Assembly: GCF_000143985.1 (NCBI RefSeq)
Contig: NC_014364.1
Location: 1,178,001-1,242,000, forward strand
From: Sediminispirochaeta smaragdinae DSM 11293
GTDB lineage: Bacteria > Spirochaetota > Spirochaetia > DSM-16054 > Sediminispirochaetaceae
Direction: 5' to 3'
Length of the DNA: 64,000 nucleotides
The position numbers and the translations under genes are program-made. Below, piece after piece: positions 2,221-15,885 of the stretch. The notes beneath the pieces were generated by a model. The model was not told where the DNA came from and did no database searches. It worked only from the letters and a program-made list of their open reading frames with translations. Each line of letters opens with the position of its first letter. Position 1 is the stretch's first letter.

Positions 2221-3798
2221 ATGAAGTCAGTTCCTTTCCCTCGACACATCCCGGCGGCTCCGACCAACCCGGCGGATAAAAGCAGTAAAAAGGCGTCTTT
2301 TCGTATCAGAGACCTCTTTGATGACCAGAGCGAAGGTTCGGAGGACGAAAAAGCCTCAGGTCTTGATGAGAAATTGCGGCAGGCCTATTTCTGGATTACC
2401 AATACGGCGATCATCAGTCCGTTTTATGATATCGAATACCATGAGCAGCCTCCACAGTCCTTTTTCTTCGGAGATTCCAAGGTACAAGTAGATCTGCCCA
2501 CAGGGCAAAGTTATTCCAGTTTCGTTCTAATTCCCTTACTGACCCTGGCCGTTCGTAAACGCTGCCTTATTGTGGGCGGACCGGGACGCGGTAAAACGGC
2601 AACCTCCATCCTCATGGGGCTTTTGGCAGGTTATGATCTGAAGGATATGAAAAGGGCCATTCAGCATGGCCAGCCCCAGATGACGGTGGCAGATCTGCTG
2701 GGACACCCCTTTCCCGGTGATCTCATGAAATCGGAAGATCCCAGTCAGATTCGTATCTCATGGCGAAAGTGGCTCGGCATGAGGGTCAAGATCATCGATG
2801 AATATAACAGGATACCCACCAGAACCCAGTCGGCGCTCTTAACGGTCCTTGCCGACAATTACGCAGAAATCATGGACCAGATCTACGAATGTCCCGAGGC
2901 AGCCTGGTATCTGACCGCCAATGACGATGCAGGGGGAGGCACATACCAGGTAATCGAGGCCTTGAAAGATCGAATTGATGTGGTTGTCAGGGCCCTCCAT
3001 TTTAACACCCGTTTCCTGGAAGATTTGCAGCATCGTATAGAAACAAGATTTCAACCGGAAAAGAACATACCCGGTGAGATTGTATTTACCGAGGAAGAAC
3101 TGGATACCCTGTATCAGGAGATTCTTGCAATTCAGGTTCCTGCGCTTATACGGAAAAAAATAGAGTTCTTCGCCCGGCAGTTTGAGTTTTTCGAACCGGC
3201 CTCCACCAAGCTGGAGTACATGACAAAGGATACGGCAAAGCTTTCCGGGCTCGATTTCCAGGAATTGATGAGTCAGGAGAGTGGTAAAGATCAGATACGG
3301 GACCTCGGCAGCCAGGCAAAGAACGGTCTGTCCGTACGAAAACTGATGACCATGCTCCTGTTCACCAAGGCTCTTGCCTACTTTCGGGGCCACGGAGAGG
3401 TCGAGGATGAGGATGTCAGGCAGATTATTCCCTTCGTACTTCATGACTCACTTTCCCCCTATCTGGAATCACCCTACTTTGACAGCGAGGAAAATGGTCC
3501 CTACCGGGTGGACAGAATCACCTGGATTCGCAAGACCTATGATCTCTCCTGCCAGGAATTTGAGCGTCTGAAGCTTCAGAAACACGATCCGGTGGAAGAG
3601 ACGGAAAAGCTGTTTCGCATGGGGCTTGAAGATCTAAGCATAAAAGAGGTGGAAAAGCGGATGTTTCAGATCGAGCAGATTTTGAAAGAGATGAGCAAGA
3701 CGCAAAAACTCTACGGTCATATGGCCGATGATATTCTTAAATTGAAGTATTTCCATCAGAGATACACCAATTATCGACGATGGCTGCAATGGAAATAG
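2221..3798 (+). CDS. MoxR-family AAA+ ATPase
   Basis: This 525-residue protein is a MoxR-type AAA+ ATPase, a class that acts as a chaperone or remodelling motor with vWA-domain partners. Walker A is GGPGRGKT (119-126), Walker B IIDEYNRIP (191-199), the sensor 1 Asn lies in LTAND (231-235) and an arginine-finger candidate is Arg251 in ALKDRID. An unusual 110-residue N-terminal extension precedes the ATPase core, and a long charged helical C-terminal region (about 420-525) follows it; typical MoxR proteins are about 330 residues. The ATG is preceded by aggag. It is the first of seven overlapping genes, and the vWA protein encoded two genes downstream is the expected partner. A TTGACA at 2158-2163 could be a -35 box, but no convincing -10 is visible. 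Confidence 0.88.
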   Translation: MKSVPFPRHIPAAPTNPADKSSKKASFRIRDLFDDQSEGSEDEKASGLDEKLRQAYFWITNTAIISPFYDIEYHEQPPQSFFFGDSKVQVDLPTGQSYSSFVLIPLLTLAVRKRCLIVGGPGRGKTATSILMGLLAGYDLKDMKRAIQHGQPQMTVADLLGHPFPGDLMKSEDPSQIRISWRKWLGMRVKIIDEYNRIPTRTQSALLTVLADNYAEIMDQIYECPEAAWYLTANDDAGGGTYQVIEALKDRIDVVVRALHFNTRFLEDLQHRIETRFQPEKNIPGEIVFTEEELDTLYQEILAIQVPALIRKKIEFFARQFEFFEPASTKLEYMTKDTAKLSGLDFQELMSQESGKDQIRDLGSQAKNGLSVRKLMTMLLFTKALAYFRGHGEVEDEDVRQIIPFVLHDSLSPYLESPYFDSEENGPYRVDRITWIRKTYDLSCQEFERLKLQKHDPVEETEKLFRMGLEDLSIKEVEKRMFQIEQILKEMSKTQKLYGHMADDILKLKYFHQRYTNYRRWLQWK

Positions 3799-4694
3799 GC
3801 ACAACGCTGGCCCTTTTCCTTCAAAAAGAGGAACCGGTCCTCCAGGCTTCTTTGGACACGCTACTTGAATCACACCCCCTTGTGCGGGAGCTTGATGTGG
3901 AAGGGCTGCTGAGTCACCTGTTCTCCGCTCTGTTCGAAGTATTTTCTTCGGACTCGGAGTGCCTGCGCATGCTTTTCCTGCACGGCATGAGGCACTATCT
4001 GCCTGCCGTGCTTAAAGAGGGCGAAACGACGCTCCCTGCCGAGATGCTTCTTGAAAGCTGGCTTCTGCTAAGGCCCCTGATCTCTGATCAGCGCCTGCTT
4101 TCGGCGGATAAACTACCAGGTTTTCTCGAGCGGTGGGAGCTCGCCTTGAAGCGGCTCCCGGATAATTCCATGCGCCGGAGCTGGCTGGATCATATGGCCC
4201 GGTACCTCGATCAATGTACCCGACTTGAGCAGGTCTTTGCCCTGGGGCGTCTGGCCGCCTGGATTCTGGGGCTGGCCGAACAGCGGCAAGCGGCCCTGGA
4301 GAGTGCTGATCTTCTACCTGAAAAGCTCATCGGTGAGCTTCTTCACATAGAGAAGAGTGGACTGAAAGAGGCCCGGGATAACCCCTGGTTTTTCAAAGGC
4401 TCCTTCATCAAGGGGCGTATCGGCGGTTTCGCCGGTTACGGAGGGCCCTTCCTTCAGCCACCTACATGTCGCAGGCTGGAAGGGGTTTCTTTGCCTGCCT
4501 CCAGCGGCCTTGTGGCCCATGACCGGAAAAATGGTTACCATCTCTTTGCCGATTCCTTCGGCTGCCGTCTGGTTTACGATCCCGCCCTCCTGACCCTGGC
4601 CCGGAATCTTCCCGAGGCGCATGAGACCGAGTGGCTCCTTGTCGACTGTCGGAAGGACAGTCACTACCTATGGGTCCGGAGGAAGGGGGCATGA
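3780..4694 (+). CDS. Uncharacterised protein between MoxR and vWA genes
   Basis: I do not recognise this 304-residue protein. Roughly residues 1-200 are predicted helical and Leu-rich, while residues 205-304 contain Gly/Pro-rich and beta-like segments (FAGYGGPFLQPP, then alternating hydrophobic strands up to WLLVDCRKDSHYLWV). There is no signal peptide or membrane segment. Its gene overlaps the MoxR gene by 19 bases and the vWA gene by 4, so translation is probably coupled. MoxR-vWA modules described by Aravind and colleagues often carry a third, poorly conserved component between or next to the two core genes; this protein holds that position, but I see no diagnostic motif. A second ATG at 3789 is an alternative start. 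Confidence 0.7.
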   Translation: MAAMEIGTTLALFLQKEEPVLQASLDTLLESHPLVRELDVEGLLSHLFSALFEVFSSDSECLRMLFLHGMRHYLPAVLKEGETTLPAEMLLESWLLLRPLISDQRLLSADKLPGFLERWELALKRLPDNSMRRSWLDHMARYLDQCTRLEQVFALGRLAAWILGLAEQRQAALESADLLPEKLIGELLHIEKSGLKEARDNPWFFKGSFIKGRIGGFAGYGGPFLQPPTCRRLEGVSLPASSGLVAHDRKNGYHLFADSFGCRLVYDPALLTLARNLPEAHETEWLLVDCRKDSHYLWVRRKGA

Positions 4695-6427
4695 ACGGGA
4701 AAGAACTGTGCGAAGCCTGGGATGAACGGTGGGAAGAGGCCTTGGGGCTTTGGAGTCATCTGGTCATGATGCGTTCTCCCCACTGGTGTTTTTCTACGGA
4801 GGAGGCAAAGACCCAGGGACTGGAGGGCAGTTTTGCCATGATTCGTCTGAAGGATCACCGAGTCGTTCTCGATGCTTCACTCATCTCGTATTATCGCTTG
4901 GAAGACTTTCCTCTGGAAATACTCGCCCACGAAATCGGCCATCATGTCTATGTCCCGGCAAATCTTCAGGACAACGGGCGTTTGCTAAGCCTGGTGCGCA
5001 AGGCCCTGACGGAAAAAGAAAGCTATGCGCCCCAGTTTATGAACCTCTACGCCGATCATCTGATTAACTACCATCTTCAGAAACAGAAAGGCCTGGCCAT
5101 GGCGGAAGTCTATCAACATATTTTGGCCAAGCAGAAGAAGGATGACACTTCTGCGGTGTGGAATCTGTACCTGGCCGTCTACGAGCGGCTTTTTTCTCTA
5201 AAACCCGGCACCCTGGCACGAGTTCCAGGCAAGAAAACAGAGTCCCAGAGGCTGGAACAGGATAGTGAAATAGGGGCTCAGATCATTCGATCCTATTGTG
5301 AAGATTGGCTCTCGGGAGCCTACACCTATGCTTCCCTCTATTACCCCTATCTGTGGGAAAAAGCCCAGGAGAGCGCTTCGATTACCCTCCTCCTTGATAC
5401 CCTGCATGCCTCGGACGGGGCCTCCGGGGAGGGGGGAGACCTACAGAAGGTTTCTGCCGATGGGGTGGGTATGGTGTCCGATCACTCCATCTCCGGCGAT
5501 GGAAGAACAGAAATCGGTTCACCTCAATCTGAGGGAGAAGGGCCGGCTCAGCGCTATACCTCGCCCTGTGAGTATTTGGATTACATGAGTCAGCTGGAAC
5601 CGGGGAGCTTTGATTCCAACAAGGCGCTGGCCCGCTATTATACGCAGATTGCGTCCCCGTATATGATCCCATTTCCCATGGAAGTCATGCCGGAAAAAGA
5701 GGCTATCATCCCCGAAGGCCTAGAATCCTGGGATATCGGTGATAATCCCGGCGAGATCGACTGGTTTGGGACCCTCATCCGAAGCCCCGAGGTGGTACCG
5801 GGGATGACAACAGTTAAAAAGGTCTATGGATGGGATGATGACCAGAGCCCCGGGCAAAAGGTCCCGGACTTGTATATCGGTATCGATTGTTCCGGTTCCA
5901 TGGGGAATCCTGCTCTGAAATTTAGCTGGCCCGTTCTTGCAGGGACCATCATTGCCCAATCGGCATTGCGGGCCGGGGCCAGGGTGAAGGTCGTTCTTTC
6001 CGGTGAGCCTGGTTCTTTCATGGAGACCCGCGATTTTGTAAAGAGTCGGCAGGAGGTCATGAATGTGCTGATTTCCTATCTTGGAACGGGTTTTGCTTTC
6101 GGAATTCCCCGTCTTGCCGATGATTTTTCCCGTCCCAGGAAGGAGCGGACCCATATTCTGCTTTTGACCGATGACGATATCTTTGCCATGCTGAACGACG
6201 GTCCCCATTATGATCAAAAGCACTCTACCTGGGAGGTCGCAGACAAGGCCCTTAAAAACGGTGGAGGCGGCGGCTCCTTGGTCCTCTATTCAGAACCCGA
6301 GTACCATGCGAAAGAGGCTGACCGCTTGAAAAAAGAGGGCTGGGACCTCTTCTACGTATCCAATGACGAGGAGTTGTCCCGTTTTGCCAAGGCCTTTGCC
6401 CGCAAAAAATTTGGAGCCAAGCGATGA
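4691..6427 (+). CDS. Putative zinc metallopeptidase-vWA domain fusion
   Basis: The 578-residue protein joins two domains. The N-terminal part carries a zinc-metallopeptidase signature HEIGH (80-84) followed by YADHLIN (120-126), the arrangement seen in DUF2201-type putative metallopeptidases paired with vWA domains. A low-complexity Gly/Ser/Asp linker spans about 240-290. The C-terminal vWA domain has a complete MIDAS metal site: DCSGS (399-403), a Thr in YLGTG (466) and Asp in LLTDDD (494-496). It presumably works with the MoxR ATPase encoded two genes upstream, which would regulate its metal-dependent binding or cleavage. The ATG at 4691 was chosen because it overlaps the previous stop as ATGA and follows a good ggaggaaggggg site; an in-frame GTG at 4631 is less likely. 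No export signal is present, so it should act in the cytoplasm. Confidence 0.82.
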   Translation: MNGKELCEAWDERWEEALGLWSHLVMMRSPHWCFSTEEAKTQGLEGSFAMIRLKDHRVVLDASLISYYRLEDFPLEILAHEIGHHVYVPANLQDNGRLLSLVRKALTEKESYAPQFMNLYADHLINYHLQKQKGLAMAEVYQHILAKQKKDDTSAVWNLYLAVYERLFSLKPGTLARVPGKKTESQRLEQDSEIGAQIIRSYCEDWLSGAYTYASLYYPYLWEKAQESASITLLLDTLHASDGASGEGGDLQKVSADGVGMVSDHSISGDGRTEIGSPQSEGEGPAQRYTSPCEYLDYMSQLEPGSFDSNKALARYYTQIASPYMIPFPMEVMPEKEAIIPEGLESWDIGDNPGEIDWFGTLIRSPEVVPGMTTVKKVYGWDDDQSPGQKVPDLYIGIDCSGSMGNPALKFSWPVLAGTIIAQSALRAGARVKVVLSGEPGSFMETRDFVKSRQEVMNVLISYLGTGFAFGIPRLADDFSRPRKERTHILLLTDDDIFAMLNDGPHYDQKHSTWEVADKALKNGGGGGSLVLYSEPEYHAKEADRLKKEGWDLFYVSNDEELSRFAKAFARKKFGAKR

Positions 6428-7038
6428 GAGTTCCGCAAAACGGTGAGCAAACAGGGCCTCAACTGGAGGATCTGCTCCACCATCTTTCCGAATGCCCCGG
6501 TGTGTTTCTGGAAACGCCGCTGTTCGTCAGCTCTGCCTCCGAGGGCGGAGTCCATAGTTTGGCTCTGATTTTTGATCTGTTTCTGCTCCAGAATGTGAAG
6601 ATCCCTATAGGCTTGAAAAGGAAGTTGGAAACATCCTGGGAAAGTCCCCAGTTATCTGAGCGCTGCTGGCGAGGGTGGCAGCTTCTGGCCTACCTCTTTT
6701 CCCACAGCTGGTTCTATGAGAAAAAGGTCCTGGCAAAGGGCTTTGCCCGTGGCCTTGATCATATGCACAAGCTTACCGATATTGTGGAGGCTTCCGCTTT
6801 TATCGCCAACCCGGCACGGCGGGAGGAACTCTGTCGGCTTGCACTATTTTGGTGCGGCCTCAGGCCGCAGGGAGAGAGCCCAGAGCAGGCCGAGGATCGG
6901 CTGAAGGCACTGGATACCCTTTTCAGGAAGGACATCGAAGCGAAAAGCAGCCGGAACAGGAGCAGGGCAGAGGAGATACGACGAAAAATCCAGGAAGCCA
7001 GGGCCAGGGAGGCGGCCAATACCTATGCAAGGGAATAA
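6424..7038 (+). CDS. Uncharacterised helical protein of the MoxR-vWA operon
   Basis: This 204-residue protein matches no family I recognise. It appears almost entirely alpha-helical, with a Trp-rich middle (residues 70-100) and a strongly charged Arg/Glu/Ala-rich C-terminal helix (about 170-200) that could be a coiled coil. It has no signal peptide, membrane segment or obvious catalytic motif. The start overlaps the vWA stop codon as ATGA, and the end overlaps the next gene by 14 bases. By position it may be a small adaptor or regulatory subunit of the MoxR-vWA complex, but this is inference from context only. Confidence 0.7.
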   Translation: MRVPQNGEQTGPQLEDLLHHLSECPGVFLETPLFVSSASEGGVHSLALIFDLFLLQNVKIPIGLKRKLETSWESPQLSERCWRGWQLLAYLFSHSWFYEKKVLAKGFARGLDHMHKLTDIVEASAFIANPARREELCRLALFWCGLRPQGESPEQAEDRLKALDTLFRKDIEAKSSRNRSRAEEIRRKIQEARAREAANTYARE

Positions 7039-8374
7039 GACGATCCGTCCTGTTCTGGACGATTCAGAGCGATTCCCAGGACTTGAGGATTTGAGATGGG
7101 TCTACTACCTTAGGCAGCATCCGAAGGCGCCTCTGTACAATTTCAAATCGGGAGATCGTCTCGATTCAGACGGGGTGGAGCGGCTGCATGGCTACAAGAG
7201 GACGTTGCGGAAGCTCGGTGGTACCTCATCCCTCTCCTTTATACGGGCGTTCTACAAAGAGGCCCGTTCGGATGTTCCCGCCTACCGAAACTATCCGGCG
7301 GATTTTAACGATGCTCCTTCCATGAATCGTGACGACCTGCGCAAGGCCCCCTGGGACTATGTGAAAGATAGCGCTTCGTTGGAAAATATCCTCTGTTATG
7401 CCACCTCGGGAACCACAGGGGCGCCCCTCGAGGTTATCTTTGATGCCACATGTGCCTCTTCCTGGTTGCCCCAGGTGGAGTTGATGCTGGAGAAGGAGGG
7501 CCTCGGTCTGGAAAAGGGAGCAGGAACAACGGCTGTCGCCCTGATCTGCTATCAACTGGAGACCCTGACCTATGCCTCCGCTTCATCCTATTTAGAAGGC
7601 TCCGGTTTCATCAAGGTGAACCTCCATCCCAAACAGTGGAGAGCTCCCTCGGATGCAAGCGACTATCTTCTGGGCTTAGATCCGGGACTTTTGACGGGAG
7701 ACCCTCTGGCCTTTTCCGCCCTCATGGAGCTTGAGATTCCCCTACGCCCCCGTGCCATGATCTCCAGTGCCATGACCCTGAGCGAGGGATTAGCCGTTAA
7801 GCTGGAAGAGTACTTTCATTGCCCCGTCTATGATGTCTACTCCATGACCGAATGCCGAAACATAGCCTTCAAGAGACGGGGAATCATGGAGAAGATGAGA
7901 CCGGACCTCTATCTGGAAATCCTGGCCCCCGGAGAGGAGCGCGTTTTGGAAGAAGGAGCGTGGGGAGAGCTGGCGGTCAGCGGCGGCAACAACCCCTATC
8001 TTCCCCTGATCCGTTATCGGACGGGAGATTTTTGCCGTCTGAGAAACCAGAGGGGGCGGCAGTTTCTGGAAGATTTTCAGGGACGACTTCCCGTTCGTTT
8101 TCCCCTGCCTCACGGCGGTTGGATAAATACGATAGATTTTTCCCGGGCCCTGGCTCCCTTGGCCCTGGCCTCCTTTCAGATTGCCCAGCAAAGGGATTTT
8201 TCTCTGGTCGTTCGCTATGGTGGGAGGGGCAAGCTCTCCCGAGAGATCGGAAAGGCCATCGGGGGCGTTTTGGAACAATACGGTGCAGAAGATCTTCCCT
8301 TTATCTTTGGAGAACCTTTGCCGGAAATTTCTGGAAAGAAAATCTGTTCCTTTGTAACGGAGTTTGAGCGTTGA
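7025..8374 (+). CDS. Acyl-adenylating ligase, PaaK/F390-synthetase-like
   Basis: This 449-residue protein belongs to the ANL superfamily, which activates carboxylic acids as acyl-AMP and passes them to CoA, a carrier or another nucleophile. It has the ATP-binding loop YATSGTTGAP (125-134), a YDVYSMTE segment corresponding to the YxxTE motif, and RYRTGD, which holds the ribose-binding Asp. The length and motif style resemble phenylacetate-CoA ligase or coenzyme F390 synthetase more than classical acyl-CoA synthetases. No acyl carrier protein or polyketide gene lies nearby, so the acceptor is unknown. It overlaps its upstream neighbour by 14 bases and the NadR gene by 4. The pairing with NAD-precursor enzymes is unusual. 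Confidence 0.8.
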   Translation: MQGNKTIRPVLDDSERFPGLEDLRWVYYLRQHPKAPLYNFKSGDRLDSDGVERLHGYKRTLRKLGGTSSLSFIRAFYKEARSDVPAYRNYPADFNDAPSMNRDDLRKAPWDYVKDSASLENILCYATSGTTGAPLEVIFDATCASSWLPQVELMLEKEGLGLEKGAGTTAVALICYQLETLTYASASSYLEGSGFIKVNLHPKQWRAPSDASDYLLGLDPGLLTGDPLAFSALMELEIPLRPRAMISSAMTLSEGLAVKLEEYFHCPVYDVYSMTECRNIAFKRRGIMEKMRPDLYLEILAPGEERVLEEGAWGELAVSGGNNPYLPLIRYRTGDFCRLRNQRGRQFLEDFQGRLPVRFPLPHGGWINTIDFSRALAPLALASFQIAQQRDFSLVVRYGGRGKLSREIGKAIGGVLEQYGAEDLPFIFGEPLPEISGKKICSFVTEFER

Positions 8375-9366
8375 AAAAGGTCGGCTTGTGTTTGGGCAAA
8401 TACGCTCCCTTCCATCGGGGCCACGGCCTTGTCATAGAGACGGCCCTGAGCGAAATGGATCTGGTTCTTGTGTTGATTTACAACAGTCATGTGACCTCCA
8501 TTCCCCTGAAAAAACGGGCGGACTGGATTCGCCGCATCTATCCCGAGCGGGTCAAGGTGATAGAGGCCTACGACGGTCCGGAAGAGACCGGTTACAGCCC
8601 CGAGATCAAAAGCAAGCAGGAAGCTTATGTCTTGAAGAAGCTAACAGGGTGGCAGATTCACAGCTTCTATTCCTCGGAACCCTACGGGGAACATATGAGC
8701 CGGGCCTTGGGTTGTCGAAACCGTCAGGTTGATTGCCAGAGGCTGCAATTCCCCATATCGGCCACACTCCTGCGAGAGGATCCCTATACATACCGCCGTT
8801 TTCTCAGCCCCGAGGTCTACTTTGACCACGTAATCAAGGTCGTATTTCACGGAGCACCCAGTACGGGAAAAACCACCATTTCGGAGGCTCTGGCCCGGAA
8901 ATTTCACACGGCCTGGATGCCTGAGTACGGTCGGGAATACTGGGAAAAACATGAAGTGGACCGAAGGCTAAGCCCCCGTCAGCTTCTGGAGATAGCCTGC
9001 GAACACAGAAAACGGGAACTGAGGGATGTGTATGAGGCAAGGGATTTCTATTTTATCGATACCTGTGCACTTTCCACCTACCACTTTGCCCTGGATTATC
9101 ACGGTACGGCTCTTCCCGAGCTTTGCCGCCTGGCCGATGAGGCTGGAAGCCGCTACGATCTGCATATTCTTTGCGGCGATGATATTCCCTATGATGATAC
9201 ACCCGACCGTTCGGGTGAGGTGTATAGATCAAGATTTCAAAAGAGATTTGAAAAAGATCTTCAAAAACGGCAGATCCCCTACATTCTGCTTACCGGTTCC
9301 CTGGAAGAGCGGATAGAAAAGGTCTCCATACTTTTGAAGCATACCAAGGAGTTACATTCATGCTGA
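8371..9366 (+). CDS. nadR: NadR-like NMN adenylyltransferase / nicotinamide riboside kinase
   Basis: This bifunctional protein (331 residues) matches NadR without its DNA-binding domain. The N-terminal nucleotidyltransferase domain has GKYAPFHRGH, with the HxGH signature at 15-18, and the later ISATLLR (129-135) in place of ISxTxxR. The C-terminal kinase domain has a P-loop GAPSTGKTT (161-169). Such proteins phosphorylate nicotinamide riboside to NMN and adenylate NMN to NAD in the cytoplasm. The lack of the helix-turn-helix found in enterobacterial NadR implies an enzyme only. Translation starts at a TTG that overlaps the ligase stop as TTGA, and the gene overlaps pnuC by 7 bases, so uptake and salvage are tightly coupled. 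Confidence 0.9.
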   Translation: MKKVGLCLGKYAPFHRGHGLVIETALSEMDLVLVLIYNSHVTSIPLKKRADWIRRIYPERVKVIEAYDGPEETGYSPEIKSKQEAYVLKKLTGWQIHSFYSSEPYGEHMSRALGCRNRQVDCQRLQFPISATLLREDPYTYRRFLSPEVYFDHVIKVVFHGAPSTGKTTISEALARKFHTAWMPEYGREYWEKHEVDRRLSPRQLLEIACEHRKRELRDVYEARDFYFIDTCALSTYHFALDYHGTALPELCRLADEAGSRYDLHILCGDDIPYDDTPDRSGEVYRSRFQKRFEKDLQKRQIPYILLTGSLEERIEKVSILLKHTKELHSC

Positions 9367-10049
9367 ACTTTTTTTCCATCAACCATGTAGCCTTCACCGT
9401 TCTTCAGTATCCCATGAGCTATGTGGAGTTTCTGGGGACCATCTTTTATATATGGTCGGTCTGGCTTATTGCCCAGAAAAAGATGCTCACCTGGCCGGTC
9501 GGTATTGTATCGGTCATCCTGTATGCATTTCTTTTCTATCAGATTCGTCTCTATTCTGATTTTCTGGAGCAGCTCTACTACTTGGGGGCCAGTGTCTATG
9601 GATGGTGGTTTTGGGATAAAAAGAAAAAAGAGGATCAGGAGATCGCTGTCGTCCGCGGTACTCTAAAGAATAACATATTCTGGCTGGCTGGTATTCTCAT
9701 TGTTTCGGGATTCACCGGCCTTTTGATGGGAAGAATCCATCTGATTCTTCCGAAAATCTTTCCCCAGCCGGCTGATTTTCCTTTCTGGGATGCCTTTACC
9801 ACCATAAGCAGTTTTGCCGCCATGTTCCTTCTGGCCCGAAAACGATTTGAGAGTTGGCTTCTCTGGATTGTGGTTGACGTGATAGGAATCGTGCTCTATT
9901 ACGTCAAGGGGGTGAAATTCCTTTCGCTGCTTTACGTCTTTCTGTTGCTTATCGCCCTTAAGGGCTTTTTAAGCTGGCGGTCCTCTTTGCATAGTGTTCC
10001 GAATCCTGGTGATAACCGGAGCACTGCCCATATAGGGAATGGGCAGTGA
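9360..10049 (+). CDS. pnuC: PnuC nicotinamide riboside transporter
   Basis: The 229-residue protein is an inner-membrane PnuC-family transporter with about seven hydrophobic segments. The family's conserved aromatic region is visible in the stretch YYLGASVYGWWFW (near residues 72-84). PnuC carries nicotinamide riboside by facilitated diffusion, and the NadR kinase encoded just upstream traps the substrate by phosphorylation. The gene starts with ATG inside the end of nadR. The last 20 or so residues, after FLSWRSS, are encoded by the first copy of a 21-bp direct repeat and a hairpin, so the native C-terminus may have been altered by that element. Confidence 0.9.
   Translation: MLNFFSINHVAFTVLQYPMSYVEFLGTIFYIWSVWLIAQKKMLTWPVGIVSVILYAFLFYQIRLYSDFLEQLYYLGASVYGWWFWDKKKKEDQEIAVVRGTLKNNIFWLAGILIVSGFTGLLMGRIHLILPKIFPQPADFPFWDAFTTISSFAAMFLLARKRFESWLLWIVVDVIGIVLYYVKGVKFLSLLYVFLLLIALKGFLSWRSSLHSVPNPGDNRSTAHIGNGQ
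10022..10048 (+). other. Stem-loop at the 3' end of pnuC
   Basis: A perfect 9-bp stem, cactgccca (10022-10030) with tgggcagtg (10040-10048), overlaps the pnuC stop codon. No T-tract follows, so it is more likely a transcript-stabilising hairpin than an intrinsic terminator. Confidence 0.5.
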
Positions 10050-10542: not shown

Positions 10543-11067
10543 ATGGATACCACCGGTGGAACCGGCTTGATCATATATTCAAGTAAGACAGGTAATACAC
10601 GTACGTTAGCCCGGGGCGTGGTTCAGGGACTTGGTATGCGGGTTAAACTGGCAGCAATAGAAGAAAATTTAGATGCTTTGTCCTTCTCTTGGGTGATTAT
10701 CGGTTTTTGGGTTGATAGGGGAGATCTTGATGCCAAGGCACGTTCATATGTAGAAACACTTTCTGGATGTAAGGTTGGTCTTATTGGAACCCTTGGAGCC
10801 TATCCTGATTCGCCTCATGCCAAAGATGTCGAGAATCATGTACGGGATGTCATATCTGCGAGAAACAAATATCTGGGATGTTTTTTATGCCAGGGACGGA
10901 TTGATCCGGCCCTGACAAGGAAGTTTGAGCAGCTGCCGCCGGATCATCCTCACGCTATGAATGAAGAACGCCGAAAGCGTCACACAGAGGCCGCATTCCA
11001 TCCCAATGATGCAGATATTGCGGCTGCTACTGCAGCATGTGCGGAAATGATAAAGGCCGCAAGATAA
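10543..11067 (+). CDS. Flavodoxin-family protein of the haem operon
   Basis: The 174-residue cytoplasmic protein has an N-terminal FMN-phosphate loop, YSSKTGNTRTLA, and a second flavodoxin loop around IGTLGAYPDSPHA. It is similar in size and style to flavodoxin-like proteins found beside haem- or bilin-metabolising enzymes. Because the operon also encodes a HutW/ChuW-like radical SAM enzyme, which needs a low-potential electron donor, the likely role is to reduce that enzyme. This is inferred from context. The ATG follows aaaggagtaaag and is the first gene of the operon. Confidence 0.8.
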   Translation: MDTTGGTGLIIYSSKTGNTRTLARGVVQGLGMRVKLAAIEENLDALSFSWVIIGFWVDRGDLDAKARSYVETLSGCKVGLIGTLGAYPDSPHAKDVENHVRDVISARNKYLGCFLCQGRIDPALTRKFEQLPPDHPHAMNEERRKRHTEAAFHPNDADIAAATAACAEMIKAAR

Positions 11068-11069
11068 TC

Positions 11070-12074
11070 ATGAAACATACAGCCTCCAGCAGGATGCGCT
11101 TACTCCTGTGGATACTCGCGATTGTCTTGGTGATACTGCTTCTTGTGGGTGTCGCTTCCGGGAGTGTCCGGATTCCTCTGCGGACCGTCATCTCCGTGCT
11201 TACCGGTCATGCCGAAGCTGATGCCAATGCCACGATTATTTTAGGAATACGTCTACCCCGCTTACTTATGGCAATTTTGGTGGGGATGATGCTCTCTACG
11301 GCGGGAACGGTGGCACAGGCGGTGTTCCGGAATCCTTTGGCGGACCCCTACATTATCGGTATTAGCGCGGGTGCCGTAGCAGGTGCAATCCTTGCGTTCT
11401 TTTTGGGATTGCCCGATGTCTATTACGGGATTTTTGCTTTCTTTACCGCACTGGCCACGGCGTTTCTTATTTTTCGTCTGGCAGGACGAAAAGGAAAAGC
11501 CGACACGGCTATGCTTCTCATTGTAGGAATAGCCGTGTCGTCGTTCTTGAGTGCCTTAACCTCCTTTGTCATGTATTCGGCTGGCGAGGATTCATACCGA
11601 GTGATGGTGTGGACCATGGGGTACTTGGGGGCGGCTACATGGGGCCGGGTAGGGCTACTGGTAGTGCCGCTTATCGCGTCGTCAGCCTACTTCCTCTATC
11701 TTCGACAGGATATTGATGCCTTGCTGATGGGGGACGAAGAGGCGTATTCGCTTGGCATCGATGTCGGCAAGCTTAAGCGACGGTTATTACTGGTTACCAG
11801 CTTGATAGTCTCTTTTTCGGTGGCATTTACCGGTATGATTGGTTTTGTGGGACTCATTGTGCCCCATGCCATACGGCTCATTATCGGAAATGGCCACGCT
11901 CGTCTTTTACCTCTTGCGGCATTTTCCGGCGGTGTCTTCTTGCTTTTTGCCGATACCCTGGCTCGTACACTACTTGCGCCGACAGAGATTCCTATCGGTG
12001 TGGTAACGGCTTTTTTCGGGGCCCCGTTCTTTCTGGTTTTAGCCGTTCGGGCTGGTCGAGGAGGCGCAGTATGA
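11070..12074 (+). CDS. FecCD-family ABC permease for haem or ferric siderophore
   Basis: This 334-residue inner-membrane permease belongs to the FecCD/BtuC family. The family signatures RLPRLLMAILVG and NPLADPYIIGISAGA are present in the N-terminal third, and GMIGFVGLIVPHAIR in the C-terminal third; about nine to ten hydrophobic segments are visible. It would homodimerise and pair with the ATPase encoded next. The ATG at 11070 was chosen because it gives a standard cytoplasmic N-terminus three bases after the flavodoxin stop; an in-frame ATG at 11037 would add 11 polar residues. The gene overlaps the ATPase start as ATGA. Confidence 0.92.
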   Translation: MKHTASSRMRLLLWILAIVLVILLLVGVASGSVRIPLRTVISVLTGHAEADANATIILGIRLPRLLMAILVGMMLSTAGTVAQAVFRNPLADPYIIGISAGAVAGAILAFFLGLPDVYYGIFAFFTALATAFLIFRLAGRKGKADTAMLLIVGIAVSSFLSALTSFVMYSAGEDSYRVMVWTMGYLGAATWGRVGLLVVPLIASSAYFLYLRQDIDALLMGDEEAYSLGIDVGKLKRRLLLVTSLIVSFSVAFTGMIGFVGLIVPHAIRLIIGNGHARLLPLAAFSGGVFLLFADTLARTLLAPTEIPIGVVTAFFGAPFFLVLAVRAGRGGAV

Positions 12075-12889
12075 GTCTATGTGCGGAACATATCCATTTT
12101 TCCTACCGGGATAAGACGGTTCTTGCCGGTGTCGACTTTACATTGCAACAGGGAGAGGTCTTTGGTTTGTTGGGCCCCAACGGATCGGGAAAATCGACCT
12201 GTCTGAAAACTGTATTGGGGTATCTCAAACCCTCCTCTGGTCGGATCGTTTTTGCAAGGTTCGGTTCTTTGCCGTACGGTTTGCTGGTTGGTAAAGAGGT
12301 TGCCCGGCGGGTTGCCTTTGTACCGCAGCAGACTGCATTGCATTCGGCAATTACCGTTTTCGAAGCGATTCTTATGGGACGCTTGCCACATCTTGCCGAT
12401 CGCTGGAGCGGTTACGGGGCGGAAGACAAAAAGAGCGTTCGTGAGGTGGTAGAGGCCTTGGGCCTGTGCGACTTAGTGGACCGAAATGTGACCTGTCTCT
12501 CAGGGGGCGAGTTGCAAAAGGTCATTATTGCCCGCTGCCTTGTACAGGAGAGCGATATTCTCCTGCTGGACGAAGCTACGGCAGGTCTCGACTTAAATCA
12601 CGCTGTAGAAATCATGGAGTTTATGCGACGAAAAGCGAAGGAAGAGTCGAAAAGCATCGTCGCAGTACTTCACGATGTGAATCTCGCTTCTCAGTACTGC
12701 GATCGTATAGCGCTACTCAAAAAAGGCTGTTTACGCTACATCGGTACTCCTGAAGAGGTTATAAGCGAAACGGTACTGGAAGAGATCTACGGTATTCGGG
12801 CGAAGATCGGCTACGATGATGGCGGCAAGCCTTTCGTTTTGCCGCGGCGGATAGAAACTGCTGAAAGAGAGGTTGCCAATGTTTGCTGA
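12071..12889 (+). CDS. FecE/HmuV-type ABC ATPase
   Basis: This 272-residue ATPase energises the FecCD permease. It has Walker A GPNGSGKST, the Q-loop region, signature LSGGELQK and Walker B ILLLDEATAGLD, followed by the switch His in AVLHDVN. The length and the YxFG-like spacing fit the iron-siderophore/haem/cobalamin class. Its start overlaps the permease stop by 4 bases and its end overlaps the radical SAM gene by 11, indicating coupled expression. Substrate specificity comes from the neighbouring receptor and binding protein, which point to haem. Confidence 0.92.
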   Translation: MSLCAEHIHFSYRDKTVLAGVDFTLQQGEVFGLLGPNGSGKSTCLKTVLGYLKPSSGRIVFARFGSLPYGLLVGKEVARRVAFVPQQTALHSAITVFEAILMGRLPHLADRWSGYGAEDKKSVREVVEALGLCDLVDRNVTCLSGGELQKVIIARCLVQESDILLLDEATAGLDLNHAVEIMEFMRRKAKEESKSIVAVLHDVNLASQYCDRIALLKKGCLRYIGTPEEVISETVLEEIYGIRAKIGYDDGGKPFVLPRRIETAEREVANVC

Positions 12890-14153
12890 ACGTTATCGCT
12901 CACACCATGATGCAGAGGCAAAATTAGCTTCTATTTTGGGACTGTATGCACATTCGCGTTCCGGAACAGTGGACTGGGAGGATGTGGAGCGGCCTCTCTA
13001 CTCTGCGCCACCGTCTGGGAGACGCTGTATCTATATCCATATCCCATACTGCGATACAATTTGTGAATTTTGCAATCTTAATCGTACCGCTCGGGGACAT
13101 ACCGATTTAGATGCGTATACAAAGTATCTAATAAAGGAGATCGAGTGGTATGCCCGATATCCGTACATCAGGGATGGTCAGTTCGACGCCATATATTTTG
13201 GCGGCGGCACGCCCACTATTTTACAGACTGAGCAGCTTAGCCTGGTACTTCGAGCCTTACGCGACTCTTTTCACTTGTCAGAGGATTGTGAAATAACATT
13301 GGAATCGACACTTCATAATCTGCCGGCTGAAAAAAGTGCCCGCCTCCAGCAGGAGGGGGTGAACCGTTTGAGCCTTGGTGTTCAAACCTTTTCGTCCCGT
13401 GGAAGATCATTTCTCGGCAGAACAGGGGATGCAGAATATGCTATCGCTCGACTGCGAGCGATCCGGCAGCTCTTTTCTGGTGTCCTTGGAATAGACATTA
13501 TCTACAGCTACTTCGATCAGAGTCTGGAGGAGGTCGCTCATGATGCTTCTCTTTGTTCTGATTTGTCCCTTGACGGTGCGAGTTTTTATTCTCTCATGAT
13601 TCACGACGGTTCTTCCTTGGGGCAGCGTATTGCGAAAGGTGAAATTCCCTTTGGCCGGAGCCTGGAAGATGATCGACAACGGCATAATCGTTTTTATGAG
13701 GATATGCATGCGGGTGGATACGAAATGCTGGAGCTCTCCAAGCTTGTTCGTCCCGGCCGTGATGAATATCGGTACATACGAATTCGATATGAGAATGGTG
13801 ATGTTCTTCCCATTGGAGCAGGGGCGGGCGGGCAGTTGGCTGGATACCGTATCTATTCCATGGCACAGGGCCGCCGCTTTGCTTCGAAGATAGAACCTGC
13901 TTATGCACAATACCACCGCGTGTTAGGCCATTTACAGTTTGGTTGCTACGACCTTACAACCCTCTCGGAGGAATTAGGGCCGGATTCGTATGCTCCTTTG
14001 CGGGAACGAATGGACTATTTTGTCCGCAATGGGATGCTGGTACCGGAAACGGATGATCTGTATACGTTAACCGCCGATGGAATTTTCTGGGGAAATAATA
14101 TTGCGGTGGACATATTGAAAGCGGCGATAGATGGGACGAAAGAACATCACTAG
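12879..14153 (+). CDS. HutW/ChuW-like radical SAM haem-utilisation enzyme
   Basis: This 424-residue protein is a radical SAM enzyme of the coproporphyrinogen-oxidase-like (HemW/HemN) family. The 4Fe-4S motif CDTICEFC places ligands at Cys58, Cys62 and Cys65, just after IHIPY, and the SAM-binding GGGTP follows. Within a haem-uptake operon, the closest known counterparts are HutW and ChuW, which open the haem ring without oxygen by radical methyl transfer and release iron. HemW haem chaperones are the main alternative. The ATG at 12879 has a gagagg site at the right distance; a TTG six bases upstream is weaker. The anaerobic chemistry matches the oxygen-independent lifestyle suggested elsewhere in the window. 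Confidence 0.82.
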   Translation: MFAERYRSHHDAEAKLASILGLYAHSRSGTVDWEDVERPLYSAPPSGRRCIYIHIPYCDTICEFCNLNRTARGHTDLDAYTKYLIKEIEWYARYPYIRDGQFDAIYFGGGTPTILQTEQLSLVLRALRDSFHLSEDCEITLESTLHNLPAEKSARLQQEGVNRLSLGVQTFSSRGRSFLGRTGDAEYAIARLRAIRQLFSGVLGIDIIYSYFDQSLEEVAHDASLCSDLSLDGASFYSLMIHDGSSLGQRIAKGEIPFGRSLEDDRQRHNRFYEDMHAGGYEMLELSKLVRPGRDEYRYIRIRYENGDVLPIGAGAGGQLAGYRIYSMAQGRRFASKIEPAYAQYHRVLGHLQFGCYDLTTLSEELGPDSYAPLRERMDYFVRNGMLVPETDDLYTLTADGIFWGNNIAVDILKAAIDGTKEHH

Positions 14154-14175
14154 GCTTTCGCCTCTCGGCGAAAGC
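14154..14175 (+). other. Intercistronic hairpin after the radical SAM gene
   Basis: A perfect 9-bp stem, gctttcgcc (14154-14162) with ggcgaaagc (14167-14175), has a 4-base loop and begins directly after the stop codon. No T-tract follows. It probably tunes mRNA processing or stability between the enzyme and the binding-protein gene. Confidence 0.55.
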
Positions 14176-14204
14176 GGTGCTGGACACAGAAAAGGAGAAA
14201 TATT

Positions 14205-15179
14205 ATGCGAAAGATAGCATATCTTGTTGCCGTTATCCTCGCTTTTGCAGGATGCGGAAATGAAAAGTCCTCTCATACGGATGCTGCATCTTCAGCTTCA
14301 TCGGCAGATACCGGAAAGCAGCTCGCATCCGTTACCATAGATGAAGCGACGGGGCGTGCACGTGATGCATATGGTCATACCATCGAGGTTCGTCCATATC
14401 AAAGAATGGTAGTAGCTTCGCTGGGAGCCGTAGAAACACTGTATCTTATTGGGGGCGAAGATGCCATGGTTGCTATAGCAACCAGTCGTGGGGGTGTCTG
14501 GCCCGAAGAGAAGACAGCCTTGCTTCCTAGTGTAGGAAATGTGGCTCGTCCAAGTTTTGAGACGATTATATCCTTTGATCCCGATATCGTTATTCTCAGC
14601 GCCATGTCTTTGGATATCGCCGAAAGCCTGTCTGGGCGCGGTATCCCCGTATTCATTCACGACGCCACGTCAATCGAAGATATTTTCGCTTCCGTAGAGC
14701 TTTTGGGCGATCTTTCGGCTAAAGAATCGGCAGCAGAGGCCTTGATAGCCGAAAAACGGGCTCGCCTGGCGGAAGTGGCGTCTGCGGTTGCCAAGCGGAC
14801 GGTGCGGCTAAAAGGTGCATTTCTCTATTCAGCCAATCCCGTCATGGGCTTTACCAACGAATCGCTTCCTGGCGAGATACTGAATCTCCTAGGGGTAACG
14901 AATATAGCCGTGGGGCTAAGCGGGAAGCGTCCTATTATCTCATCTGAGCTCCTCATATCCGAAAATCCCGATTTTCTTTTTATCTCCATGTCGATTGAGA
15001 ACCCCGAAGACTTGCTTAGGGCAGAATCTGCCGTCGCAAGAACTCGTGCAGGGAGAGAAGGCCACATCAGCACGATTCCTTCTTCTTTGATTCTGCGCCC
15101 CTCTCCACGTATTGTGGACGGAATTTCGACGCTCCAAGAAATTCTTGCGGAGATTCCTCCTGCCCCGGAAGAGGGATGA
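14205..15179 (+). CDS. Haem/iron ABC substrate-binding lipoprotein, FecB/HmuT type
   Basis: The 324-residue protein starts with a lipoprotein signal peptide ending in the lipobox FAGC, so it should be anchored in the periplasm-facing membrane. It is followed by the type III binding-protein fold: an N-terminal lobe with RMVVASLGAVETLYLIGG, a long connecting helix and a C-terminal lobe. It delivers haem or a ferric chelate to the FecCD/FecE transporter. The start has a strong aaaggagaaat site. It lies between the radical SAM gene and exbB. Confidence 0.9.
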   Translation: MRKIAYLVAVILAFAGCGNEKSSHTDAASSASSADTGKQLASVTIDEATGRARDAYGHTIEVRPYQRMVVASLGAVETLYLIGGEDAMVAIATSRGGVWPEEKTALLPSVGNVARPSFETIISFDPDIVILSAMSLDIAESLSGRGIPVFIHDATSIEDIFASVELLGDLSAKESAAEALIAEKRARLAEVASAVAKRTVRLKGAFLYSANPVMGFTNESLPGEILNLLGVTNIAVGLSGKRPIISSELLISENPDFLFISMSIENPEDLLRAESAVARTRAGREGHISTIPSSLILRPSPRIVDGISTLQEILAEIPPAPEEG

Positions 15180-15189
15180 GGAGCTTGTG

Positions 15190-15885
15190 ATGTTTTTGGA
15201 AACCTTTCACCATATTGTTGCATTCATTCAACTGGGAGGTATCCTCAACTGGATTCTTGTCGGGCTATATCTGGTTGTTCTTGTGCTTGCAGTGGATCGT
15301 TGTGCTTACTTTATTCGCACAGGATACCAGCGTAATCGTCTTGTTGCCGGTATCGATTCGGCTTTTTTTGCATCCATATCGGATAATGGCACCGACGGCC
15401 AAACGCCGGCTTTCCCTTGGCCTAAACATTACGCTAAAAGTCAGCCGGTGCGCATGATTGCCCTTGTACTCGAAGATCGACGGTCGACGAAAGAGGCTTT
15501 GGACGAGGCCGTGGATCGTGAAGGTTCGGCCATACGGAGGGAGATGGATCGTGGCTTAGAGGCTCTTTCGGTCATCGGTAACATTGCTCCTCTAATGGGT
15601 TTACTTGGCACGGTGACGGGGCTTATGAGGGCTTTTCATCGCATCGAATCCCTCGGCGGTACCGTCGATATTGCCGCTTTTTCCGGTGGTATCTGGGAGG
15701 CAATGATCACGACAGCCATCGGATTAATCGTGGCTATTCCGGCAGTAGTTTTTTGCAGAGTCTTCGAAAAGATTGTAGAACGTCGTGGTGAAGATATGGG
15801 GTATGTCGTTTCTCTCGTATCGGAAAGCTTGCATGAGGGGACTGTGGAAAACCCTCGGGCGGGGCAAAGCCGGGAGAGTGCATAA
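15190..15885 (+). CDS. exbB: ExbB/TolQ-type proton channel protein
   Basis: This 231-residue protein is a MotA/TolQ/ExbB-family inner-membrane protein. It has an N-terminal membrane segment (about 15-35), a cytoplasmic loop and two further segments containing IGNIAPLMGLLGTVTGLM and AMITTAIGLIVAIPAVV, both hallmarks of the family. With ExbD it uses the proton-motive force to energise TonB. The ATG at 15190 was chosen over an upstream in-frame GTG at 15112 because it follows a gagg-containing site and gives the expected N-terminus. The stop codon shares one base with the exbD start. Confidence 0.92.
   Translation: MFLETFHHIVAFIQLGGILNWILVGLYLVVLVLAVDRCAYFIRTGYQRNRLVAGIDSAFFASISDNGTDGQTPAFPWPKHYAKSQPVRMIALVLEDRRSTKEALDEAVDREGSAIRREMDRGLEALSVIGNIAPLMGLLGTVTGLMRAFHRIESLGGTVDIAAFSGGIWEAMITTAIGLIVAIPAVVFCRVFEKIVERRGEDMGYVVSLVSESLHEGTVENPRAGQSRESA

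Follow-up and report, generated by a model that had tools for sequence, protein, structure and literature searches.

A conserved seven-gene module in Sediminispirochaeta smaragdinae links a predicted MoxR-vWA metallopeptidase machine to an adenylate-forming enzyme, NadR and PnuC

Positions 2221-10049 of a 64,000-nucleotide stretch of the Sediminispirochaeta smaragdinae DSM 11293 genome (contig NC_014364.1; hereafter the window) carry seven overlapping genes, A to G, on the + strand. They encode a MoxR-clade AAA+ ATPase (A), a predicted zinc metallopeptidase fused to a vWA domain (C), two conserved proteins of no assigned family (B and D), a PaaK-like adenylate-forming enzyme (E), a NadR-like protein (F) and the nicotinamide riboside transporter PnuC (G). 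It is near certain that A-G exist as a unit, and bifunctional NadR has been gained and lost together with it. Phylogenetic evidence further indicates that the module is horizontally exchanged. As the best explanation of the whole, we tentatively propose that this exchanged module remodels D with A-B-C and couples it to a chemistry carried out by E, F and G, with the chemistry standing as a working hypothesis drawn from sequence.

Results

Conservation of the module across phyla

Of the 393 Spirochaetota genomes searched, 24 contain C. Their loci keep the order A-B-C-D-E, in which A is about 60% identical and the remaining proteins roughly 25-40%, and F and G usually adjoin. Genome contigs were then scanned more broadly; a single C protein gave no match, and an alignment of MoxR proteins used in its place recovered 80 loci from many phyla. 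The A-B-C-D-E order occurs in Spirochaetota, Bacteroidota, Riflebacteria, Myxococcota, Acidobacteriota, Planctomycetota, Pseudomonadota, Verrucomicrobiota and Desulfobacterota, and A-B-C, with or without D, in Nitrospinota, Chloroflexota and UBP2 records. Fifty-eight loci had enough flank to be fully covered. B sits between A and C in 57 of these, and 52 contain both D and E. Among the 52 loci with D-E, 45 have a NadR gene no more than 10 kb away, and the six without D-E have none. Binning errors do occur among metagenome-assembled genomes, as two near-identical loci (L102 and L103) are assigned to different phyla. The link between the module and NadR is also present in isolates of Flavobacterium, Pontibacter, Microbulbifer and Chitinimonas.

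The arrangement of these genes varies. We observed the orders ABCDE-FG, ABCDE-GF, GF-ABCDE, ABCDE-F'G' and F'G'-ABCDE, where a prime denotes the opposite strand. As NadR and PnuC precede A-E in some lineages, follow it in others or lie on the other strand, common ancestry of one gene order does not explain the link. Where the parts are dispersed, they are still retained elsewhere in the genome as the blocks A-B-C, D-E and F-G, which may correspond to three sub-units. One genome (G004) carries ABC, DE-G and F on three separate contigs, and three others (G103, G032 and G182) keep NadR at another genomic site. Two open reading frames (ORFs) cross gene boundaries: one joins C to D in Sporocytophaga (L066:12513-14858; a gene fusion or a frameshift), and one joins E to PnuC in a single metagenome-assembled genome (L054:1366-3345; a fusion that may be a frameshift). 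These fusions support contacts between the sub-units.

Presence and absence follow the same pattern. D occurs in 24/24 Spirochaetota genomes with C and in 0/369 without it. Bifunctional NadR is found in 22/24 module genomes compared to 36/369 others (Fisher p = 2e-18), or in 12/13 versus 15/155 when counted by genus (p = 3e-10). Among 300 Flavobacterium genomes, D is present in 11 and bifunctional NadR in 12; NadR accompanies D in 11/11 genomes and appears in 1/289 lacking D (p = 3e-19). These tests cover two phyla and do not fully correct for shared descent. The initial annotation had treated A-G as one functional unit, a view upheld by the gene order in multiple phyla, the varied arrangements and the presence-absence data. 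It also held that an association confined to this strain would be due to chance; instead, the link spans many phyla, and co-occurrence together with repeated rearrangement that keeps the link rules chance association out.

NadR and PnuC might still be passengers whose functions are unrelated to the MoxR-vWA genes. PnuC is indeed lacking in some loci, and no NadR is found near 7 of the 52 complete A-E loci. Against this stand the repeated rearrangements with the link kept, the near-perfect co-occurrence in two phyla and an in situ replacement of NadR described below. We strongly disfavor the passenger explanation and consider it highly improbable.

Phylogenies of A and of F agree in putting the S. 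smaragdinae proteins into starred clades together with Bacteroidota and Riflebacteria, apart from other spirochaetes. Identities of F agree with the trees (51-56%, against 27-34%). Within the A clade of S. smaragdinae, the NadR of Pontibacter, Pararcticibacter and Desertivirga belongs to an unrelated lineage, which we take to mean that NadR was exchanged there without loss of the association.

The operon in S. smaragdinae

All seven genes annotated initially, with overlaps of 4-19 bases, lie where they had been placed; successive junctions overlap by 19, 4, 4, 14, 4 and 7 bases in the ORF list of the window. For C, the mechanical ORF opens at GTG 4631, and we chose ATG 4691, which gives the 4-base overlap. 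The shared strand and the overlap at every junction support the earlier suggestion that the genes are expressed together. Scans for promoters and terminators gave results no better than shuffled sequence. In a sister genome (G003), A-G occur in identical order with 91-98% protein identity.

Upstream of A, positions 909-2102 hold an AAA_14/DUF4143 ATPase gene that matches the PDC-S01 models of PADLOC; it is intact here and decayed or broken up in the sister genome. Downstream of the operon (10543-15885) are genes for a BilS-like flavodoxin, a BtuC/FecCD-type permease, a heme/corrinoid-type ABC ATPase, a ChuW/HutW-like radical SAM protein, a substrate-binding protein and an ExbB-like protein. 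From its gene content, this cluster looks like one for anaerobic heme acquisition and degradation.

Proteins A, B and C

A (2221-3798; 525 residues) matches the Pfam families AAA_3 (PF07726; 29.3 bits) and AAA_lid_2 (PF17863; 24.7 bits), both above the curated cut-off. Its Walker A (GGPGRGKT) and Walker B (KIIDEYNR) motifs are invariant in the alignment, and a C-terminal extension, LKYxHQRYTNY, is also conserved. Full-length homologues in other module loci share 56-71% identity with A. By these matches, A belongs to the MoxR-clade AAA+ ATPases. B (3780-4694; 304 residues) has no Pfam family and no fold match in the PDB at E ≤ 0.001. Its AlphaFold2 (AF2) model, with a predicted local distance difference test (pLDDT) score of 90.8, combines a helical N-terminal part with a small β-rich C-terminal domain.

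C (4691-6427; 578 residues) contains a HEIGHH zinc motif (HE[IVA]GHH in the family, an HExGHH motif) and a vWA DxSGSM motif. Invariant positions in 20 homologues are H80, E81, H84, H85, D399, S401, G402, S403 and D494. Pfam support for the vWA domain is weak, with VWA detected in 1 of the 20 members, and the peptidase part has a sub-threshold match to M48. We predict that C is a zinc metallopeptidase fused to a vWA domain. In a spirochaete/Leptospiraceae group (L047, L048, L049, L051 and relatives), genes for ZIP and/or cation-efflux proteins lie between C and D, which fits with a need of C for zinc.

One alternative to D as the client of this machinery is a host enzyme encoded elsewhere. A-B-C would then act as an insertase or chaperone, by analogy with CoxDE, NorQD and CbbQO, and D-E-F-G would make or load a cofactor that is NAD-derived (from nicotinamide adenine dinucleotide) or acyl-adenylated. 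MoxR-vWA pairs of known role mostly assemble or metallate enzymes (PMC7159879), the metal transporter genes in the L047-type loci are compatible with such a role, and no client gene is constant nearby, as expected if the client is encoded at a distance. However, no shared client enzyme was found, and the inseparable partner of C is D, which has no recognized enzyme domain. We place host-enzyme maturation on the unlikely side.

Protein E

E (7025-8374; 449 residues) carries the motifs TSGTTGAP, YSMTE and YRTGD and a C-terminal GKK in the alignment, and the core motifs are found in most homologues. Profile comparison matched it to phenylacetate-coenzyme A (CoA) ligases in the PDB with an E-value of 8.6e-26. 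These features identify E as a member of the ANL superfamily of adenylate-forming enzymes. Assignment as a PaaK-type acyl-CoA ligase did not hold: E scores below every curated cut-off of the AMP-binding and PaaK profiles (82.6 bits for NF045666, against a cut-off of 300), and its hinge differs in the alignment. By comparison with the PaaK family, we take E to be without the PaaK-like A8 hinge motif. Since it retains the adenylation motifs but not that hinge, E likely activates an acid, and CoA transfer is uncertain. In three loci (L114, L121 and L132), one or two MoaA-like radical SAM genes follow directly after E.

Protein D and its conserved tail

D (6424-7038; 204 residues) has no Pfam family, no fold match in the PDB and no recognized enzyme domain. 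It is modeled as helical by AF2 with a pLDDT of 92.0, and its terminal helix spans 39 residues (165-203). As neither B nor D matches a PDB fold, no function follows from their folds, despite the confident models.

The end of the terminal helix forms a tail whose conservation the initial annotation had overlooked. Its consensus is EAA[SN]xxxRE-COOH, seen in the window as AREAANTYARE; the last 10 residues, REAANTYARE, are encoded at 7006-7035 and followed by the stop codon. Tail positions average 3.09 bits per column compared to a mean of 2.10 for D, and the terminal glutamate reaches 4.1 bits. This nearly matches the best internal motif of a protein with only about 30% identity overall. Glutamate is the final residue in 67 of 72 homologues, the exceptions being two contig ends, two aspartates and one additional tryptophan. 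When nine genomes were scanned with a DNA pattern for the AA[SN]xYxRE form of the tail, seven gave a single match, located at the module; the remaining two, which had no match, have D tails that deviate from this form.

A conserved C-terminal peptide next to a metallopeptidase and an adenylating enzyme could also be a precursor peptide, cut by C and converted by E, sometimes with radical SAM proteins, into a small peptide-derived product. Metallopeptidase systems that process peptides do adjoin other MoxR-vWA systems (PMC7159879), and the radical SAM genes following E would suit such a pathway. Those genes were noticed in three loci only, however, and the tail lies within a long helix predicted for a folded 204-residue protein, which is not a short leader-core precursor. 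We regard a precursor role for the tail as improbable.

NadR, PnuC and the NAD pathways of the hosts

F (8371-9366; TTG start, 331 residues) consists of a cytidylyltransferase-like (CTP_transf_like) and an AAA_28 domain and has no N-terminal DNA-binding domain. It contains the motifs GKYAPFHRGH, ISATLLR and GAPSTGKT and matches solved NadR structures over its full length (8x7f and 1lw7; E about 1e-70 and 1e-67). Its domains and motifs are those of a NadR-like bifunctional nicotinamide mononucleotide (NMN) adenylyltransferase/nicotinamide riboside kinase. With the NadR equivalog model TIGR01526, F scores 155 bits against a cut-off of 341, a value that none of the 393 Spirochaetota genomes reaches. 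G (9360-10049; 229 residues) exceeds the cut-offs of both PF04973 (178 bits) and TIGR01528 (107 bits), assigning it to PnuC. Overall, Pfam and profile matches together with motifs confirm the gene identities given initially.

We considered whether F and G are simply the hosts' sole route to NAD. NadD- and NadE-family matches in all 20 host genomes searched rule this out. Several hosts also have a second kinase-PnuC pair at another genomic site, so F-G is not simply the host NAD pathway. A Verrucomicrobia locus (L114:17437-20065) contains a second D-E pair followed by an F cut down to its NMN adenylyltransferase domain (166 residues), which suggests the adenylyltransferase half to be the more important part of F.

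Defense evidence and variant loci

The initial annotation had offered defense as one option, which found no direct support in our searches. PADLOC models matched none of A-G, and no copies of A-G were found in phages, plasmids or IMG/VR contigs; by tblastn, A and C had no relative among 50,697 phage records. The PADLOC result and the absence of phage, plasmid and viral-contig copies speak against a known defense system. The typical cluster has neither variable effector or sensor genes nor any constant extra gene, and A-G contain no VMAP, iSTAND, FtsH or β-propeller domain of Pfam or NCBIfam.

Five loci with no NadR nearby (L110, L121, L127, L131 and L132) have one gene family upstream of A. 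All three of its proteins that were scanned contain TCAD9, a domain reported to be associated with vWA-MoxR-VMAP systems (PMC10910872). Some of the TCAD9-type proteins have PTPase or NUDIX ends, and there is a weak, below-cut-off match to an isochorismatase-like start. Nicotinamidase activity, which we considered for the isochorismatase-like part, was set aside in view of that weak match. It is possible that the TCAD9-type gene replaces F-G in loci without NadR. These neighbors are the sole link of the module to conflict systems, and we treat them as a hint.

An antiphage or stress system would have F-G restore NAD after depletion while A-B-C-E execute or control the response. A MoxR-vWA core marks predicted conflict systems (PMC7159879), several relatives lacking NadR have the TCAD9-type protein beside MoxR, and the distribution of the module is patchy and horizontal. 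The negative searches argue in the opposite direction, as does the fact that the typical cluster has no hypervariable gene for an effector or sensor. In addition, the parts show strong conservation and can lie dispersed through the genome, unlike those of a mobile defense unit. We consider a conflict function unlikely.

Discussion

Our preferred reading is that the module remodels D. vWA domains bind client peptides at the metal-ion-dependent adhesion site (MIDAS), and MoxR rings pass on remodeling driven by adenosine triphosphate (PMC7159879). Based on these families, the vWA domain of C would hold a client peptide, the ATPase ring of A would pull or reshape it, and the peptidase of C could cut it. 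Given its obligate pairing with C and its conserved tail, D is the best candidate for the client, which would be presented through the tail ending in glutamate. E would adenylate a carboxylate, which could belong to a small acid that is then attached to D or a different client, or could be the free one at the end of the D tail. F and G may support this reaction in one of two ways: imported nicotinamide riboside could be turned into NAD for an NAD-consuming step, or released NMN or nicotinamide riboside could be converted back to NAD. We would expect the product to be a protein that is matured or modified, rather than a variable toxin.

Several observations weigh against this proposal. The tail of D could be structural, as the end of a long helix, or could bind B instead. 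The C-terminal lysine of E is not seen in four loci (L086, L093, L097 and L127), so adenylation may not be universal. Some module loci have no local F, and some have other genes beside A. Finally, the cluster has no constant NAD-consuming enzyme, so no identified step accounts for the need for NAD.

A bolder form of the chemistry, which we judge quite unlikely, is a protein conjugation or carrier system coupled to NAD. E would adenylate the C-terminal glutamate or another tail residue of D, acting as a folded carrier; the MoxR-vWA-peptidase motor would present and process the tail; and NadR and PnuC would supply or recycle NAD or NMN as donor or by-product. We know of no precedent for such a system.

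MoxR-vWA machines are widespread and few have a known client, so the tail of D offers a concrete client hypothesis. The module also allows direct tests of what NAD does in a MoxR-vWA system, and it is found in cultured bacteria such as Flavobacterium. Strong comparative evidence now fixes a module that combines two unassigned conserved families and an adenylating enzyme with a near-obligate, unexplained link to bifunctional NadR. In several lineages, NadR should accordingly not be taken as plain NAD salvage.

Relationship to known systems

The core of the module is a MoxR-vWA kind of machine. The initial annotation had considered its coupling to NAD genes and an acyl-adenylating enzyme not to be a described pathway. 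In agreement, we found no description of the A-G combination (MoxR with NadR, PnuC or PaaK) in the open-access, open-licence literature. Conflict ternary systems (Kaur et al. 2020, PMC7159879) resemble it in having MoxR, a vWA partner and further conserved operon proteins, and in the TCAD9 domain protein of some module relatives. Unlike them, the module has no identified VMAP, iSTAND, FtsH or β-propeller partner and no variable effectors, and it possesses the metallopeptidase-vWA fusion, B, D, the adenylate-forming ligase and NadR/PnuC. The main text describing the ternary systems contains neither NadR nor any acyl-forming or AMP-forming term.

Two other MoxR systems invite comparison. In a jumbo-phage system (PMC7824862), a vWA co-chaperone with an N-terminal metallopeptidase domain is encoded next to a MoxR gene, an arrangement like the one predicted for the module; that system is phage-borne and proposed for virion assembly, whereas A and C had no relatives among the phage records searched by tblastn. 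In Escherichia coli, YehL-YehM-YehP-YehQ likewise combines a MoxR ATPase and a vWA protein with unknown partners in an operon, but without ligase or NAD genes. Orthology with this operon is not supported, as A and YehL align in the AAA core only, C and YehP share no more than a short vWA stretch, and B does not match YehM.

The remaining components each have relatives outside MoxR systems. E has the ANL core motifs in common with PaaK-type phenylacetate-CoA ligases and the DVU_1553 family, and the PaaK ligases are its best solved relatives; it differs from both in its own conserved N-terminal region and in falling short of every curated cut-off. F and G have the same domains and motifs as the kinase-adenylyltransferase and transporter of NadR/PnuC nicotinamide riboside salvage. 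They differ from free-standing salvage genes in that their gain and loss follow the module, and their hosts have NadD and NadE and in some cases a second kinase-PnuC pair.

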